Both the position numbers and the translations under genes were made by a program. Positions 5,593 to 14,965 of a stretch of DNA of 42,821 nucleotides are shown here, piece by piece (position 1 is the stretch's first letter; every line of letters starts with the position of its first letter). The stretch covers positions 1-42,821 of the forward strand of contig JAFQKX010000021.1 in assembly GCA_017414705.1 (NCBI GenBank), read 5' to 3'. The notes beneath the pieces were generated by a model that saw only the letters and a list, made by a program, of their open reading frames with translations, made no database searches and was not told where the DNA came from. Source of the DNA: Clostridia bacterium. GTDB lineage: Bacteria; Bacillota; Clostridia; Oscillospirales; Acutalibacteraceae.

Positions 5593-7119
5593 ATGGTAAA
5601 AAAACAGAGTAAACTTGTGCGTCTTGTCTGTTTGCTGATGGCTGCAATGCTGTGTCTGGCCCTGCTGTCCGGCTGCAAAGACAAGGAAAACGATGGTTCC
5701 GCGGACGGTTCCTCCAAGGAGACCAGTTCGGTCAAAGACACCGTAGCCATGGAATCGTATGCCGACGTTTGGAATCCCAACATTCCCGAGCGGCAGGATC
5801 TTGGCGGATTTGAATTGAAATTCGCCGCCAGAAATATGAACATGATCATCCCCAAGGAAGGGGTCAGCGAGGATGACGATCAGATCGTTGAGATCATGAA
5901 GGATCTTCAGAGCCGATACAACTGCAAGTTCTCGGTACGCGAGGTCAAGGATTGGGGTACCGGTGACATTATGAGCGAGCTGCTCACCGGCAGCGAGGTC
6001 GCACACGTCCTGATGCCTGAGGTCTGGCGTTCCGGCTTGTACGTTTCGGCACGTATTCTGATGGATTGGAATTCCGAGCCCATCAAAAAATACGTCCACA
6101 CCGATGAGCTTTGGTGGAACTCCACCATGGCATACGCCTCCAATGTCAACGGCAAGGTCTATGCCGGCGCCTGCAACATTCAGAACTATGCTGACTGGAC
6201 CTACGTCTGCTTGTTCAACAAGAAGATCCTCAGCGAGATCGGTTCTTCCGCAGACGAGCTTTACAAGATGTACGACGACAAGACCTGGAACTGGGATGCC
6301 TTCCGCACCCTGGCCAAGAAAGCGGTCAAGGACCTCGACGACGACGGACAGATGACCGCTGCCGACCAGTACGGCTTCTGCTCCTCCGACTACGATGCGT
6401 TGGTTGCGCTCATTTCCTCTGCCGATGCCGACTGCATCCGCAGTAATAACGGTAAGGATGCGCATTACACCTACGCGAAACCCCGCGAGATTCAGGTGCT
6501 GACCACCCTCAATGAAATGTACACCCTTGACGGCTCGTACTTTGCAGGCAGCATGGAGCGAGTCGACGGTGTGCGCGGAGACGTTCGTCAGTTCACCTCC
6601 GGCAAATCGCTCTTCTTCCTCTTCACGCTCAGTTCCATCAAGGGCGCTGACTATCGCACAATGTCAGAGGACCTCGGCATCCTGCCCGTCCCGCTGGGAC
6701 CCAGCAATGACGGCAAGGGCTGGCAGAGTGAGTATATGTCCCGCGTGGACCACAACTTCTTTGCAACCCTCATTCCCGCTAACAACAGCGATCCCGAAAA
6801 GACCGCTCTCTTGCTGGAAGCCATCGCCTTCGTCCGTTGGAGAAACACCAACGACCGTATGGATGCCTACGGCGTTCTGTATTGCAGCGATGACAAATCC
6901 GCTGAGATCGTCAAGGAAGTCTACAACTTCTCCTCCTTCGAGATCTCCCAGTTTGTCTATAGCGTCAACAATCAGGCATTTGCCCGTAACGTCTGCTGGG
7001 CCATGGCCAATATCACCAAGATCCCCGGCATGGATATTGCAGGCCAGTGGGGCTCGGTCGAGCAGGTAGCACAGGATATCATCGACGCCTACTTCTCCGA
7101 CAAGCCTCTCACCGTGTAA
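5593..7119 (+). CDS. Extracellular solute-binding lipoprotein (ABC-type sugar-binding family 1)
   Basis: This 508-residue protein has a signal peptide with the lipobox LLSGC (Cys28), a Ser/Thr/Lys/Asp linker and a long mixed alpha/beta body. The body resembles the large family-1 solute-binding proteins of carbohydrate ABC importers in Clostridia, with conserved-looking segments such as MYDDKTWNWDAFRTLAKKA and YSVNNQAFARN. The start chosen is ATG 5593, which has an AAAGGAG site 9 bases upstream; the ATG at 5563 would add ten poorly supported residues. It is the last gene of the operon with the two beta-helix proteins and ends at a hairpin terminator. No permease or ATPase gene is adjacent, so its transporter partners must be encoded elsewhere, or it has another binding role. 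Confidence 0.8.
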   Translation: MVKKQSKLVRLVCLLMAAMLCLALLSGCKDKENDGSADGSSKETSSVKDTVAMESYADVWNPNIPERQDLGGFELKFAARNMNMIIPKEGVSEDDDQIVEIMKDLQSRYNCKFSVREVKDWGTGDIMSELLTGSEVAHVLMPEVWRSGLYVSARILMDWNSEPIKKYVHTDELWWNSTMAYASNVNGKVYAGACNIQNYADWTYVCLFNKKILSEIGSSADELYKMYDDKTWNWDAFRTLAKKAVKDLDDDGQMTAADQYGFCSSDYDALVALISSADADCIRSNNGKDAHYTYAKPREIQVLTTLNEMYTLDGSYFAGSMERVDGVRGDVRQFTSGKSLFFLFTLSSIKGADYRTMSEDLGILPVPLGPSNDGKGWQSEYMSRVDHNFFATLIPANNSDPEKTALLLEAIAFVRWRNTNDRMDAYGVLYCSDDKSAEIVKEVYNFSSFEISQFVYSVNNQAFARNVCWAMANITKIPGMDIAGQWGSVEQVAQDIIDAYFSDKPLTV

Positions 7120-9280: not shown

Positions 9281-9661
9281 TTATTCTTGGGGGAAGATCT
9301 GCTGCAACGCAGCCAAAACCTGCAGCTGATGCTCCGGCGGCAGTCTGCGATAAAGCAGCAAAAGGCTGGTCTCATCGATCTTTTGCGTCAGCAGTCCCTT
9401 CTCGTGTACCACCGAATTTTCCGCCAAAGGCTCTGCAGGACCCGCGGCAAAGCATTCCTTGGGCAGCATTTGATCCACCGATACCGAAAAGATGCCGGAC
9501 AACCGCATCAAACGATCCAGCTTGATATCGGTCGCACCGTTTTCAAAATAAGTATACGCGGAACGGTCTACGCCCAAAGCATCGGCAACCTGCTGTTGCG
9601 ACAGTCCGGACTGCTTGCGCAGCTCGCGGATGCGTTGTGCAATTAATTTTTTCATTTCCAT
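9281..9661 (-). CDS. XRE-family helix-turn-helix transcriptional regulator
   Basis: This 126-residue protein has an N-terminal Cro/C1-type helix-turn-helix (residues 3-58). Its motif SGLSQQQVADALGVDRSAYTYFENG contains the typical scaffold and recognition helices. The C-terminal half is short and helical, perhaps for dimerisation. The start chosen is ATG 9661, which has GGGAG 8 bases upstream; GTG 9670 would overlap that site. A TTGACA-17-TATAAT promoter lies immediately upstream. It is transcribed divergently from a candidate non-coding RNA, so it could control itself and that RNA (inference). Its targets are unknown. A terminator follows, so it is not obviously co-transcribed with dnaD. Confidence 0.85.
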   Translation of the reverse strand: MEMKKLIAQRIRELRKQSGLSQQQVADALGVDRSAYTYFENGATDIKLDRLMRLSGIFSVSVDQMLPKECFAAGPAEPLAENSVVHEKGLLTQKIDETSLLLLYRRLPPEHQLQVLAALQQIFPQE

Positions 9662-9696
9662 GGTCGTCACTCCCGCCCCTCTGATTGAACTATTTT

Positions 9697-9725
9697 ATTA
9701 TACTGTAAAAAAAGGGGAGTGTCAA
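9697..9725 (-). promoter_or_regulatory. Consensus sigma-A promoter of the XRE gene
   Basis: On the minus strand TTGACA (9725-9720) and TATAAT (9702-9697) are separated by 17 bases. Both hexamers match the consensus exactly. Confidence 0.8.
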
Positions 9726-9810
9726 TAGAATCGTTTGGAAAAAAGTCGAAAAAGGACAGCTCTTGTCATTTTCCATAAAAACCGAGTGTGTATTTCGTCA
9801 CCGTGCCCAA

Positions 9811-9839
9811 TTGACAGAGCAGGAAACTTTTGGTATAAT
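9811..9839 (+). promoter_or_regulatory. Consensus extended -10 promoter of the candidate ncRNA
   Basis: TTGACA at 9811-9816 and TATAAT at 9834-9839 are spaced by 17 bases, with an upstream TGG forming an extended -10. This is as strong as a vegetative promoter can look. The predicted transcript start is near 9846, at the 5' edge of a structured region rather than before a gene with a ribosome binding site. Confidence 0.82.
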
Positions 9840-9845
9840 AAGATC

Positions 9846-10078
9846 AAACAAGAAACCCCGAAGAAAACGGAAAGGCGGTGGATCCCGTGAACAGCGAGCA
9901 GACAAGTCATTTTCACGGCGGTCTGCCGTGCGGTTTCGTCGACCCGTTTGCTGCCTGAATACTTGGGAACAGTTAAATTTGTTGAGATGTCACGCACAGA
10001 CCGCCAGCCGGCGATCCGTGCGTATTTTTATGCACGCCGCTGCGTAAATAATAACGCACAGACCGTCTCGGGTTCTAT
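9846..10078 (+). ncRNA. Candidate structured non-coding RNA, about 230 nt
   Basis: The start is predicted from the promoter and the end from a closing stem that pairs 9851-9861 (AGAA..CCCGA) with 10068-10076 (TCGGGTTCT). Inside, 9917-9924 plus 9928-9932 pair with 9993-10005, giving 13 base pairs with a 3-nt bulge. The segment CAAGT (9903-9907), just 5' of that stem, can pair with ACTTG (9961-9965) in its loop, a pseudoknot. Two further hairpins follow: CGTGC/GCACG (10017-10036) and TGCGT/ACGCA (10041-10058). The 11-mer CGCACAGACCG occurs twice (9993-10003 and 10055-10065), so the 5' arm has two alternative partners. No convincing coding frame or 3' terminator is seen. It lacks signatures of SRP RNA, tmRNA and RNase P. 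Size would suit classes such as 6S or raiA, but I cannot identify it. Confidence 0.6.
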
Positions 10079-10134
10079 CAGTGGACAGGCTCTTGTGTTT
10101 TGAATTTAAAAAATCAGTCTACAGGGAGATTTTT

Positions 10135-11061
10135 ATGAAAGGCAATCAATATTTCAAGCTGTTTTCTATACTGTTGACGGTGCTTTTGTTGACTGCTTGT
10201 GCTGATTCTTCAAAGACACTTTCACAAATATCCTCTCAACAACAATTATCAACCGTTTCCGATTCACATGAGGATTTCCAAGACCAACAGGGACTCGTTA
10301 CTTTGACGACAGATTTCGATCAAGTTCATCTTAAAAATCAAACGGTATTATATTCTGCTTGGGGCAGATTCACAAAAGAAGGATATGAAGATCCGAATTT
10401 GTTACAGCAGCATTGTTGCTACATAACAGCAGACCTCAGCGTGAAACAAGAATCCTTTGAAACGGATCTCAATATGATCATATCTTTAAATGGAGAATTC
10501 ATCTTCAAAAAGATTGATACGATTTTACAGGCCGATGCGGATCGAATTACGGTAGGCTCTCTACACAGTGCGGATTTGAATGGCGACGGTTTGGATGAGT
10601 TGGTTTTAAATTTTTCGGTTGGAAACGGAAACACTGTAACGCGCATTTATAAAGTGACCCAAGATACAATTGATGTAATTTTTGATTTTGATGAGTTCAA
10701 TTCTTACGAATCCAATTTAATACAGAAGCTGGGATATTCCGTTTCGTTTATTAAAAACAAAAAAGCTGTTTTATCCAATAGCACTGTTGCACAATTCAAA
10801 AAAGAGATTGATTTGTCCGATCAATTTTTAGAGGAAGCGTTTGATCGCTTCGGTGTTTTAAAAGAGGAAGATGATCTGCGTGATTTATACGTGCAAACGA
10901 TTTATGAGTGCAAAATTTTTCCGAGCGAAACCAACGAAGTATTTCGATTTAACAGCACATTAATTTTGGGTACCGGATATTTTGCTACCGTACAAACGAC
11001 GGTTGCCCTGACAGCGGAAAACGAGTTAAAAGTATTGGATGCATTGGTTTTGAAAACTTAA
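10135..11061 (+). CDS. Lipoprotein of unknown function with a calcium-loop-like DxNGDG motif
   Basis: This 308-residue protein has a lipoprotein signal (hydrophobic residues 9-19, lipobox LLTAC with Cys22) and a Ser/Gln-rich linker. The globular region contains SADLNGDGLDELVLNF near residue 145, the pattern of FG-GAP/VCBS-type calcium-binding loops in beta-propeller surface proteins. The start chosen is ATG 10135 after a GGGAG site; an upstream GTG at 10081 lacks such a site and would destroy the signal peptide. Codon use is more AT-rich than in the neighbouring housekeeping genes, which suggests a separate history. It is followed by a repeat element and then a second lipoprotein gene. Function unknown. 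Confidence 0.75.
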   Translation: MKGNQYFKLFSILLTVLLLTACADSSKTLSQISSQQQLSTVSDSHEDFQDQQGLVTLTTDFDQVHLKNQTVLYSAWGRFTKEGYEDPNLLQQHCCYITADLSVKQESFETDLNMIISLNGEFIFKKIDTILQADADRITVGSLHSADLNGDGLDELVLNFSVGNGNTVTRIYKVTQDTIDVIFDFDEFNSYESNLIQKLGYSVSFIKNKKAVLSNSTVAQFKKEIDLSDQFLEEAFDRFGVLKEEDDLRDLYVQTIYECKIFPSETNEVFRFNSTLILGTGYFATVQTTVALTAENELKVLDALVLKT

Positions 11062-11221: not shown

Positions 11222-11265
11222 GGGGCGGTTCTGTGATTGGCGCAGAACGCAAGAGAACCGTCCCC
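11222..11265. repeat. GC-rich inverted-repeat element, copy 1
   Basis: GGGGCGGTTCT (11222-11232) pairs with AGAACCGTCCCC (11254-11265) around a loop containing GATTGGCGCAGAACGCAAG. A closely similar stretch occurs at 12787-12830 and a shorter relative at 12182-12201. The GGGACGGTTC core resembles REP-like dispersed repeats seen in clostridial genomes (recollection of the type, not a search result). Confidence 0.7.
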
Positions 11266-11298
11266 TTGTGTTGTTTGGTTTATTAAGAAGGGTTGATC

Positions 11299-12174
11299 AT
11301 GAAAAGGTTTTTAACGTTACTGATCGTGTTATCCGTTTCATTGTTTTGTTTCGGTGCTTGTGCCGACCCGTCCTTTGAATTCCATTTTTTGACCGATGAA
11401 CAATTGAACATAGGAGATGAAATGACCAAAGGGGAAACCTTTGGATTAAGGACATTTCAAACTCAGAAACAAAAAGATCCCTCGTTGAAAAAGGACATGA
11501 AAAAGTTGCCGCACGATGGTGCAAGAGTTTGGTACGAATGCACAGAAATCACTGTGGATCAAAATCAAAATCCAATTTTTTACGGTTCGTATGATACTTA
11601 TCAAAATGAGATCGTGGAGGCGGAGTATCTTCATTCCACGGATGTTTTATGTTTCTATTTTAAGTCGTTTCCGCAGTCTGCAGATCATGGAAAAGGAATT
11701 GCTGACCACAAAGCAAAACAAATTGCAGAGGATTTTTTGAAGGCAGTTATGTCGGAAGAAAAATTTTCACAGTTTACTTATGTCGAAACGGAATCAACAC
11801 AGCGTGATTCGGTTAGTGTTGCCTATATGCGTTATATTCATGGATACCTTACGGATGAAAGACTTTCGGTAACGGTTCATCCCTGTGGTGAGGTAGCTTC
11901 TTACAACGGAAAGAATTTGTATAAGTATGATAAGTTAGAATCCCGCATCAAAAAAGAGACGTTGGAACAGGCTGAACGGGAATTAAAAGCAGGCATCGAT
12001 GCTTTGAATTTGAAAAACGTCCGTCAAGGAGATGCTGTCATCATTACCAATTCTCAAGGGAAACTGTTTTTAAGGATTTCTATCTTTCACGATATAGAGC
12101 TTTCCAAAGGCAATACGGTCTCGGCAGACAAGCAATTCTACGTTAATCTCGAGAAAGTCGAACCGTTGGCATAA
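11299..12174 (+). CDS. Lipoprotein of unknown function
   Basis: This 291-residue protein has a lipoprotein signal (hydrophobic residues 4-18, lipobox FGAC with Cys21). No family is recognised. The body is hydrophilic and Lys/Glu-rich, with a segment (about residues 136-205) that could be a PepSY-like or similar small alpha/beta domain, judged only from the alternation of hydrophobic residues. The start chosen is ATG 11299, which has GAAGGG 6 bases upstream; an in-frame TTG at 11293 lies too close to that site. It sits between two repeat elements in an AT-rich three-gene cluster with another lipoprotein and a membrane protein, which suggests a cell-surface assembly. Function unknown. Confidence 0.75.
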   Translation: MKRFLTLLIVLSVSLFCFGACADPSFEFHFLTDEQLNIGDEMTKGETFGLRTFQTQKQKDPSLKKDMKKLPHDGARVWYECTEITVDQNQNPIFYGSYDTYQNEIVEAEYLHSTDVLCFYFKSFPQSADHGKGIADHKAKQIAEDFLKAVMSEEKFSQFTYVETESTQRDSVSVAYMRYIHGYLTDERLSVTVHPCGEVASYNGKNLYKYDKLESRIKKETLEQAERELKAGIDALNLKNVRQGDAVIITNSQGKLFLRISIFHDIELSKGNTVSADKQFYVNLEKVEPLA

Positions 12175-12228: not shown

Positions 12229-12777
12229 ATGAGCAATAAGATGATTGAAAATCAGAAAAATAAAAAACGCATTCAAATAATACCGATTATAATGGGTGTT
12301 GTTGTATTGGTTTCGTTGCTTTTTTTGATTGCTTCACAGTTTGCTGCATGGAATCTCACTTATTTGTATCAAAAGATTGCATGGAATCAATCGGATAAAA
12401 TTTGGCTGGTGACCGATAAGCGACAAGTCAACAATGTAGATAAGATCGTCATGGAGATTGATGGGAAAAAGACCGAATTGACGGATCAAACTTTGATTCG
12501 CACTTTATCTCGTCAGGCAGTGATCGGGGATGGTACCTCTTTCTGGCATAAAGGTCGAATCCAAACGGTATTTTATCTGTATGATAACAACGAGATCATA
12601 CGAACGGTGGTCAAATATCGCGATGAAAACTATACCGCTAAGATCATTGCCGGGACACAAGAAGATCTGAACGAAGGGCGCGGGTTGGGATACATTACGT
12701 TGTCTTCGGAAACGGTGGAGCAAATTGAGCAATTGATCGCGCAGCAGGCGGCGGAAAAAGCAGAAACTTCTCAATAA
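12229..12777 (+). CDS. Single-span membrane protein of unknown function
   Basis: This 182-residue protein has a Lys-rich N-terminus, one transmembrane helix (about residues 16-38, IIPIIMGVVVLVSLLFLIAS) and a predicted extracytoplasmic region of about 140 residues ending in a Gln/Ala/Glu-rich tail. No family is recognised. The ATG has an AGGAG site 8 bases upstream. It is third in a cluster with two lipoprotein genes and is followed by a repeat copy and a terminator. The shared low-GC character and surface location suggest the three products work together (inference). Confidence 0.72.
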   Translation: MSNKMIENQKNKKRIQIIPIIMGVVVLVSLLFLIASQFAAWNLTYLYQKIAWNQSDKIWLVTDKRQVNNVDKIVMEIDGKKTELTDQTLIRTLSRQAVIGDGTSFWHKGRIQTVFYLYDNNEIIRTVVKYRDENYTAKIIAGTQEDLNEGRGLGYITLSSETVEQIEQLIAQQAAEKAETSQ

Positions 12778-12786
12778 GATTCAATT

Positions 12787-12830
12787 GGGGGCGATTCTGT
12801 GATTGGCGCAGAACACAAGAGAACGGTTGT
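12787..12830. repeat. GC-rich inverted-repeat element, copy 2 (degenerate)
   Basis: This copy keeps TTCTGTGATTGGCGCAGAAC and CAAGAGAAC from copy 1 with one base changed between them, but its 3' arm is degraded. It lies immediately after the third gene of the lipoprotein cluster. Confidence 0.65.
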
Positions 12831-12881
12831 TGCGCAGCTCGTTGTAAAAAGGGGAGAGTTCCCTCGAAATTTTTAGCTTTT

Positions 12882-12911
12882 ATCCCGTGGGCGTTTGCCC
12901 GCGGGATTTTT
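12882..12911 (+). terminator. Rho-independent terminator of the lipoprotein cluster
   Basis: ATCCCGTGGGC (12882-12892) and GCCCGCGGGAT (12897-12907) form a stem with one mismatch and a 4-base loop, followed by TTTTTGATTT. Confidence 0.85.
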
Positions 12912-12960
12912 GATTTGTTCACTTTTTTATCAATTTCAGCCGTTAAGTTTGTTAAAAAGA

Positions 12961-12989
12961 TTGACAAATCGCCCTTTTTGTTGCATAAT
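12961..12989 (+). promoter_or_regulatory. Promoter of the aconitase-rex operon
   Basis: TTGACA (12961-12966) and CATAAT (12984-12989) are separated by 17 bases. The predicted transcript start (about 12996) lies just before a Rex-type operator. Confidence 0.8.
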
Positions 12990-12999
12990 AGAAAGTACA

Positions 13000-13017
13000 T
13001 TGTTAAATTTTGAACAG
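13000..13017. promoter_or_regulatory. Near-consensus Rex operator
   Basis: TTGTTAAATTTTGAACAG matches the Firmicute Rex consensus TTGTTAA-N4-TTAACAA at 12 of 14 defined positions. It lies just downstream of the -10 box, where a repressor would block transcription, and rex is the second gene of this operon. The match is seen directly; the regulatory role is inference from known Rex biology. Confidence 0.72.
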
Positions 13018-13030
13018 CGAGGCGAGAATT

Positions 13031-14965
13031 GTGGGTTACACATTAGCACAAAAGATTATCCGTGCCCATTGCGTGGAGGGTACCATGCAGGTCGGCGAGG
13101 ATATCGCATTAAAGATCGACCAAACTCTGACGCAGGATGCCACCGGCACCATGGCGTATCTGGAGTTTGAGGCCATGGGCGTCGAGCGCGTCAAGACCGA
13201 GCGCAGCGTGGCGTACATTGACCATAATACGCTGCAAAGCGGCTTTGAAAATGCCGACGATCATCGGTTTATTCAGTCGATTGCCAAAAAGCACGGCATT
13301 TATTTCAGCCGTCCCGGTAACGGCATCTGCCATCAGGTACATCTGGAGCGCTTCGGCGCACCCGGCAAGACGCTGATCGGCTCCGACAGCCATACCCCCA
13401 CCGGCGGCGGGATCGGTATGCTGGCATTCGGTGCCGGCGGTCTGGACGTGGCGGTTGCCATGGGCGGCGGTGCTTATCATATCACCATGCCCAAAATGGT
13501 GCGCATCAACCTGACCGGAAAACTGTCGGGTTGGGTGGCTGCCAAGGATATTATTTTGGAAGTGCTGCGCCGTATGAGCGTTAAGGGCGGCGTTGGCAAG
13601 ATCATCGAATACGGCGGCGAGGGCGTCAAGACCTTGTCGGTTCCCGAGCGCGCCACCATCACTAACATGGGTGCCGAGCTGGGTGCCACCACCTCGATCT
13701 TCCCCTCCGATGAGATCACCAAGGCGTTTTTGGAAGCGCAGGGACGCGGCGACGTTTACGTAGAGCTGGCCCCCGATGCCGACGCGGTGTACGATGAGGT
13801 CATTGACATTGATCTGTCCAAGATCGAGCCTGCTGCCGCTATGCCGCACAGCCCCGACAACGTCAAGAGTGTGCGCGAGATCGGCCCCATCAAGGTCGAT
13901 CAGGTCTGCATCGGCTCCTGCACTAACTCGTCCTTGCTGGATATGATGAAGGTTGCTGCCATCCTGCGCGGCAAGACGGTGGCGGAAAGCGTTTCGCTCT
14001 CCATCGCCCCCGGCTCCAAGCAGGTGTACAATATGCTGGCACAAAACGGCGCGTTGGCGGATCTCATTGCTGCCGGTGCCCGCATTCTGGAATGCGCCTG
14101 CGGCCCCTGCATCGGTATGGGTCAGTCGCCTAACTCCGCAGGTGTTTCCCTGCGCACCTTCAACCGCAACTTTGAAGGCCGCAGCGGTACTGCTGACGGT
14201 CAGGTCTATCTGGTCAGCCCCGAGGTGGCTGCCGCTTCCGCCCTTACCGGCGTGCTGACCGATCCGCGCGCGTTGGGTGACGAGCCGCAGATCACACAGC
14301 CCAAGGAATTCCTCATCAACGATAATATGATCGTCGAGCCGGCTTCGGTAGAGGATGCCAAGGACATTGAGATCCTGCGTGGCCCTAACATCAAGCCCTT
14401 CCCCAAGACGCAGCCTATGCCCGCCGAGATTTGTGCCGAGGCGGTGCTCAAGGTGGGCGACAACATCACCACCGACCACATTATGCCGGCAGGTGCCAAG
14501 ATCTTGCCCTACCGCTCCAATATTCCTTATCTGTCCAATTTCTGCTTCGGCGTATGCGATACTACCTTCCCCGAGCGCGCCAAGGCAGCCGGTACCGGCT
14601 TTGTCATCGGCGGCGCCAACTACGGTCAAGGCTCCTCGCGTGAGCACGCCGCATTGGTTCCGTTGTATCTGGGCATCCGTGCCGTCATCGTCAAGTCCTT
14701 TGCCCGTATCCATTGCGCCAACCTGGTCAATGCAGGTATTCTGCCGCTGACCTTTGCCAATGAGGCGGATTATGACCGCGTTTCGCAGGGAGACCGTCTG
14801 TGCCTGCCCGATGTACGCGCCCGCCTGCAAAAGGGTGAGGCTCTGACCTTGGTCAATGAGACCACCGGTGAGACCATCGAGCTTGCCCACGCGCTGTCCG
14901 ACCGTCAGGTGCAGATCCTGTTGTGCGGCGGATTGCTGGATTATACCCGCGAACAAAACGGATAG
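13031..14965 (+). CDS. Aconitate hydratase (single-chain aconitase-like)
   Basis: This 644-residue protein combines the Fe-S catalytic domains and the C-terminal swivel domain of aconitases. It has a CIGSCTNSS motif near residue 294 and ACGPCIGMGQSP near residue 357, which supply the three [4Fe-4S] cysteines. It also has SDSHTPTGGGIGMLAFGAGG near residue 118 and the swivel-domain loop YGQGSSREHAAL near residue 530. It should interconvert citrate and isocitrate in the cytoplasm. The length and motifs fit the short Aquifex/Clostridium-type aconitase; 3-isopropylmalate dehydratase is unlikely because that enzyme is usually split into two subunits. GTG 13031 is preferred as start because it has GAGG 8 bases upstream; TTG 13010 falls inside the Rex operator. 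It is co-transcribed with rex. Confidence 0.9.
   Translation: MGYTLAQKIIRAHCVEGTMQVGEDIALKIDQTLTQDATGTMAYLEFEAMGVERVKTERSVAYIDHNTLQSGFENADDHRFIQSIAKKHGIYFSRPGNGICHQVHLERFGAPGKTLIGSDSHTPTGGGIGMLAFGAGGLDVAVAMGGGAYHITMPKMVRINLTGKLSGWVAAKDIILEVLRRMSVKGGVGKIIEYGGEGVKTLSVPERATITNMGAELGATTSIFPSDEITKAFLEAQGRGDVYVELAPDADAVYDEVIDIDLSKIEPAAAMPHSPDNVKSVREIGPIKVDQVCIGSCTNSSLLDMMKVAAILRGKTVAESVSLSIAPGSKQVYNMLAQNGALADLIAAGARILECACGPCIGMGQSPNSAGVSLRTFNRNFEGRSGTADGQVYLVSPEVAAASALTGVLTDPRALGDEPQITQPKEFLINDNMIVEPASVEDAKDIEILRGPNIKPFPKTQPMPAEICAEAVLKVGDNITTDHIMPAGAKILPYRSNIPYLSNFCFGVCDTTFPERAKAAGTGFVIGGANYGQGSSREHAALVPLYLGIRAVIVKSFARIHCANLVNAGILPLTFANEADYDRVSQGDRLCLPDVRARLQKGEALTLVNETTGETIELAHALSDRQVQILLCGGLLDYTREQNG

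Follow-up and report, generated by a model that had tools for sequence, protein, structure and literature searches.

A probable leader-peptide transcription attenuator multiplied before lipoprotein genes in one Clostridia species

The promoter, the leader ORF and the downstream genes

The stretch of DNA analysed here (42,821 nucleotides, hereafter the window) carries on its forward strand, at 9811–9839, a sigma-70-type promoter, TTGACA-17-TATAAT, which matches the consensus at 12 of 12 positions and has a TG before the −10 element (extended −10), exactly as the original prediction had described it. Transcription is predicted to start at about 9846. A second 12/12 promoter site is found close by on the opposite strand (9725–9697), where it would drive the divergent XRE gene.

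The region behind the forward promoter had been regarded as devoid of any credible gene; a 23-codon ORF (9887–9958, + strand), preceded by a very strong Shine-Dalgarno sequence, had been missed. The ORF reads GTG AAC AGC and so on up to a TGA stop codon, and its predicted product is VNSEQTSHFHGGLPCGFVDPFAA. The Shine-Dalgarno region (AAAGGCGGTGGATC, 9871–9884, + strand) would form with the 16S tail a duplex of −17.9 kcal/mol, the tail used for all duplex energies being the general bacterial sequence. This energy is equalled by 1 of the 4,321 ATG, GTG and TTG codons in the window, and that codon is very likely the start of the leader ORF itself, because the tally included it; the duplexes of the neighbouring genes range from −2 to −12. 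Thus, if the ORF is translated, the promoter is followed by a short coding region with its own ribosome-binding site, as in an attenuator. In the peptide we found no Pfam or NCBIfam family above the cut-off, no hydrophobic segment, no series of codons for one amino acid from which a signal could be read, as in the trp and his leaders, and no stall motif that we could recognise.

Three genes follow on the same strand. The first (10135–11061) encodes a lipoprotein-like product with an LTAC lipobox and a weak similarity to FG-GAP (E 0.0027, below the Pfam cut-off); the second (11299–12174) encodes a lipoprotein to which the family search assigned a DUF4901 (YcdB/YcdC) domain, and which has only two weak matches outside its own genome; the third (12229–12777) encodes a small protein, for which a single membrane segment is predicted at the N terminus and no family was found in the same search. 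We know of no link between these genes and translation stress.

One arm with two partners

Between the ORF and the first lipoprotein gene, a single arm can pair in two mutually exclusive ways. Region 3 (ACGCACAGACCGCC, 9992–10005, + strand) is complementary both to region 2 (GGCGGTCTG ccg TGCG, 9917–9932, + strand), which lies within the ORF and would be the 5′ arm of an antiterminator, and to region 4 (10010–10023, + strand), the 3′ arm of a putative intrinsic terminator, whose ATTTTT tract occupies 10024–10029 (+ strand). The first helix (9917–9925 and 9929–9932 with 9993–10005) has 13 pairs and is more stable than shuffled sequences (z −2.7); it corresponds to the 13-bp bulged stem drawn in the original prediction. 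The second (9992–10005 with 10010–10023) has 12 pairs and two mismatches, −17.5 kcal/mol and z −4.4, and in the other copies of the element described below its z ranges from −3.4 to −6.3. A simple terminator scan did not flag this hairpin, because of the two mismatches. Therefore, the locus shows two further traits of an attenuator, namely an antiterminator, overlapping the ORF, in which one arm is also an arm of the terminator and, as judged by sequence, a hairpin followed by a U tract, here a short one (5 T), before the first structural gene. In addition, region 1 (GCAGAC, 9898–9903, + strand) is able to pair with 9921–9926 in the RNAalifold consensus, thereby holding region 2; it is invariant across the copies and so offers no covariation.

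To what extent this arrangement is unusual was evaluated by dinucleotide shuffling of 9846–10029. An equally strong hairpin, at any position, occurred in 13 of 1,500 shuffles, and in none of the 1,500 did the 5′ arm of the hairpin also pair upstream as strongly; since the test was designed after the arrangement had been seen, the latter count should be taken as a rough guide, without the standing of a corrected probability. Folded as a whole, the 246-nt region is only slightly better than shuffles (z −1.7, with 10 of 200 as good), hence being structured in general is not the unusual part, which is the two-partner arm 9992–10005.

An alternative hairpin (10018–10035, + strand), in which region 4 pairs with 10028–10035 and the T tract lies in the loop, was also found (−13.3 kcal/mol for 10010–10040), and it is just partly formable in the other copies. 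Behind the terminator, at 10054–10067, region 3 is repeated (ACGCACAGACCGTC) in the window copy alone, and this repeat could pair with region 2 as well.

Five copies in one genome

When 9811–10110 was used as a query, five places were found in the genome of the window itself (1.04 Mb in 83 contigs, 70% complete), with 93–96% identity. The copies are dispersed on contigs C79 (the window), C55, C51, C74 and C40, and their parts follow in identical order; every intact copy has a promoter close to the consensus, a very strong Shine-Dalgarno site and the 23-codon ORF. The 5′ block, from the transcript start to codon 20, is 95–100% identical between copies and the 3′ block (regions 3 and 4) 75–100%, where identities are counted over the shorter sequence and unrelated stretches give about 50–75%, likeness being what lies above that. 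Exchanged between copies are the linker, the downstream sequence and, in most of them, the sequence upstream of the promoter. The linker (9959–9990, + strand, in the window) is replaced in other copies, together with the end of the ORF, by 32–86 unrelated nt, and its identity is at the level of unrelated flanks except in two pairs: one linker is common to the window and C55, and a second, 86 nt long, to C51 and C40. TTGACA and TATAAT keep the identical 17-nt spacing in C40, although its spacer (41% identity) and its upstream sequence are unrelated.

The other copies retain an intact leader ORF that has undergone few changes, too few across the five to gauge selection on the peptide; in C74 the last codons differ and the stop lies one codon further on. 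Region 3 is invariant in all copies but for its last base in C74. The T tract reads ATTTTT in C51 and C40 and ATTTTC in C55, while the run of T in C74 is shifted by several nt. In region 4 of C74 two substitutions turn mismatches into pairs and one turns a G-C into a G-U; these changes improve the terminator helix. Over the alignment, 100% of the pair cells of the antiterminator helix keep pairing, with two one-sided changes, and 84% of those of the terminator helix are standard pairs, compared with 18–59% for slid versions. As to the covariation test that the original prediction had proposed, no two-sided compensatory change occurs in either helix among these five near-identical copies of one genome, the only copies in what was searched. 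The structure is compatible with the alignment and is not proven by covariation, and, given how alike the copies are, their conservation could to a large extent be due to recent duplication. Two other elements drawn earlier fared worse: a pseudoknot (9903–9907 with 9961–9965) has its 3′ half in the linker, where three of the five copies have other sequence, and a closing stem needs sequence downstream of the terminator that is absent from the other copies.

Lipoprotein genes follow all three copies with intact readable downstream genes, namely those of the window, C55 and C40. Directly behind the C55 leader there is a DUF4901 lipoprotein gene, a paralogue whose product is 50% identical to that of the second window gene, and then another lipoprotein gene; behind the C40 leader, a further lipoprotein gene begins before the contig ends. 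The gene behind the C74 leader, judged by eye, seems to have lost its signal peptide and looks decayed, and contig C51 ends too soon behind the leader for a downstream gene to be read. Apart from the DUF4901 paralogues, the downstream genes of different copies are unrelated, as judged from one compared pair and from the family search.

These data bear on whether the element could be a stand-alone RNA of about 184 nt (9846–10029), acting in trans as a small RNA and/or encoding a working 23-residue peptide, with the lipoprotein genes being incidental. The strong promoter and the hairpin with its T tract would delimit a discrete transcript, the 5′ block, which includes the ORF, is nearly identical between copies, and multicopy small RNAs are common. 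However, in every readable copy genes in the same direction lie about 20–110 nt behind the hairpin, with no promoter of their own noted; a two-partner arm is needed by an attenuator and not by a free small RNA; and the peptide has neither a hydrophobic segment nor a family match. We consider a stand-alone RNA quite unlikely. What stood of the original prediction, which had proposed a structured non-coding RNA, is a strongly promoted, structured leader with no match in Rfam, while its stand-alone, non-coding status probably does not hold: the region would more likely form the 5′ part of a lipoprotein mRNA, from which a discrete short transcript ending at about 10029 is possible as the terminated product.

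Searches for known families and for relatives

No Rfam family matched the window at the gathering score, including 6S, raiA, SRP RNA, RNase P, tmRNA, riboswitches and amino-acid leaders; no tRNA or tmRNA was found in the window either. Permissive Rfam hits in 9600–10200 were eukaryotic snoRNA and miRNA families at chance level (E 1.7–4.8).

The two helices, being mutually exclusive, could also belong to a terminator switch in cis operated by a ligand or RNA-binding protein and not by the ribosome, the ORF being incidental. Many such switches are present in Bacillota, and a peptide in which neither a stall motif nor a codon run can be recognised would be in line with this. On the other hand, the ribosome site is among the strongest of the window and region 2 is itself part of the ORF; no riboswitch or leader family of Rfam was matched; and, with linkers that vary between 32 and 86 nt, a conserved ligand pocket could hardly be accommodated beyond the ORF block. 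Altogether, we regard this explanation as very improbable.

The search for relatives outside the genome gave no true match at any level. The DNA of 9811–10110 was not found in 59 relatives, nor in the genus, family, order and class samples, in which matches at E up to 1 were chance pieces of about 20–40 nt; a covariance model run over 148 relatives, and searches for the leader DNA in phages and plasmids, were likewise negative. A 20-base pattern with 3 mismatches gave chance hits elsewhere. The peptide pattern had six hits in 84,980 genomes, which on reading were judged to be chance, since they occur in other contexts without this architecture, and none in viral contigs. Within the genome, a sixth, divergent copy on C6 turned out to be a chance match to an ordinary terminator, and further copies of region 3 alone were, by their context, coding sequence. 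The restriction to one species therefore refers to what was searched, and records of the same genome may be left out of public collections. In the literature that we searched, nothing was found on such a leader before lipoprotein genes, nor on its peptide.

Genomic surroundings

The positions of the copies were compared with two congeners (55% and 67% complete), with the names ClpP-like, aconitase-family, GltX, GlnRS and phosphoesterase read from translations and not from a family search. In both congeners the ClpP-like gene lies immediately beside the aconitase-family gene, in divergent orientation, and in one of them (G002) dnaD-xre adjoins the phosphoesterase gene and gltX-glnS. At these junctions the genome of the window has, on C51, the ClpP-like gene next to a leader and, on C55, the leader, the lipoproteins and gltX; the order in the window is xre, leader, lipoproteins and aconitase-family gene. 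Leader and lipoprotein cassettes therefore are probably lineage-specific insertions at junctions of genes that adjoin in the congeners. The pairing in the window, with xre on one side and the aconitase-family gene on the other, matches neither congener and could reflect recombination of one copy with another or a mis-join made at the repeat during assembly, since C51, C55 and C40 end in or near the leader; for this reason the divergent position with respect to the XRE regulator, pointed out in the original prediction, has to be treated with care. The difference in gene neighbourhood from both congeners concerns 9640–10135 and 12780–13010 of the window and the loci L115, L116 and L117, and suggests recombination between leader copies or a mis-join at the leader.

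Could the element, then, be a dispersed repeat that arose by duplication or as the remnant of a small mobile element, carrying a promoter and no regulatory role, with lipoprotein genes duplicated along? Its occurrence in one species only, the cassettes between genes that adjoin in congeners, the two paralogous downstream genes and the dispersed palindromic repeats close by would all fit. However, the blocks that pair are kept while the linker, upstream and downstream sequences are exchanged, the genes behind different copies show no other relationship, and neither terminal inverted repeats nor target duplications were recognised. A repeat of this kind seems to us unlikely and, if it is what the copies are, they would be a lineage-specific feature of limited interest.

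A conditional terminator controlled by the ribosome

We consider it probable, and clearly favour the idea, that the element is a leader-peptide transcription attenuator, or conditional terminator, which was multiplied in one species before lipoprotein genes; the replacement of the linker between copies in which the paired blocks are kept counts for this reading. From the copies, the promoter, the ORF with its strong ribosome site, the mutually exclusive pairings and the downstream genes we infer the following course of transcription, translation, termination and switching. After the start at about 9846, ribosomes would load at the very strong site and translate the 23-codon ORF. If the arm 9992–10005 pairs back with region 2, the antiterminator would form and transcription would read through into the lipoprotein genes; if, alternatively, the arm pairs with region 4, the terminator would form and the transcript would end at about 10029. 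The choice would depend on the position of the ribosome on the ORF: on codons 7–18 it would cover region 2 and force the terminator, while a ribosome halted in the first codons would leave region 2 free. Candidate signals are a starved amino acid, an antibiotic or a general slowing of translation.

When the footprint of the ribosome was masked in silico, codons 7–18 covered region 2 and the terminator was favoured. With masking at the first codons or at the stop codon, the energy balance varied among copies: masking early codons shifted it by about 4–6 kcal/mol towards the antiterminator in the window copy but did not do so in C51, and in C74 the terminator was favoured always. As these equilibrium energies under a masking ribosome disagree between copies, we claim no direction of switching.

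In the attenuators of trp, his and phe the leader ORF overlaps the 5′ arms of alternating helices and a terminator precedes the first structural gene. The present leader resembles them in having an ORF that overlaps alternating helices and a terminator upstream of the genes, and differs in having no regulatory codon run, no biosynthetic genes and no match to an Rfam leader. Similarly, ermK combines an erm-type leader peptide with transcription attenuation, and has in common with our leader a leader ORF and one or more terminator hairpins, whereas here there is no Erm gene, and no leader family of Pfam was matched by the peptide. The leader-peptide attenuators known so far occur individually, before biosynthesis or resistance genes. 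The element would be an attenuator by its anatomy, and the surprise would lie mainly in its multiplication before lipoprotein genes.

Conditional terminators controlled by a uORF regulate ARE-ABCF genes, as described for cplR of Clostridioides difficile, lmo0919/vgaL and vmlR (PMC10201436). The layout of the present leader, with a promoter, a short and presumably translated ORF, a terminator competing with an antiterminator and a coding gene behind, is like that of the cplR type (PMC10201436), and most likely it is a ribosome-controlled conditional terminator as for cplR. The uORFs of the cplR type, however, have few codons and control ribosome-protection factors (PMC10201436), whereas here there are 23 codons, lipoprotein genes and five loci.

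If confirmed, the attenuator would be a module that has spread, within one genome, to several lipoprotein loci. It would thereby illustrate a route by which attenuator regulons come into being, and would suggest that in uncultured gut-type Bacillota translational sensing acts on surface lipoproteins. More tentatively, and as a possibility that we would not call probable, the species may have built a small regulon by placing promoter, leader peptide and conditional terminator before lipoprotein genes unrelated to each other, whereby the lipoprotein surface of the cell would be set by a translational signal, with VNSEQTSHFHGGLPCGFVDPFAA as a new type of ribosome-sensing peptide.

Some minor observations concern the sequences around these genes. 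The motif TGAACAGCGAG, just upstream of the aconitase-family gene (12994–13032), also opens the leader ORF (9887–9898), and may be there by chance. A palindromic 23-nt repeat, ACAAGAGAACCGTCCCCTTGTGT, lies beside the lipoprotein genes at 11249–11271 and also near those on L008 and L011; it has 5 copies in the same genome and 26 in a member of the family (G015), and is scattered in four further genomes. Finally, the second window lipoprotein and the C55 lipoprotein have nearly identical signal-peptide regions (11299–11365 and L008, about 6175–6239, − strand, respectively), followed by some 60 residues that are poorly alike and then by renewed similarity, a pattern that looks like an exchange of N-terminal parts.
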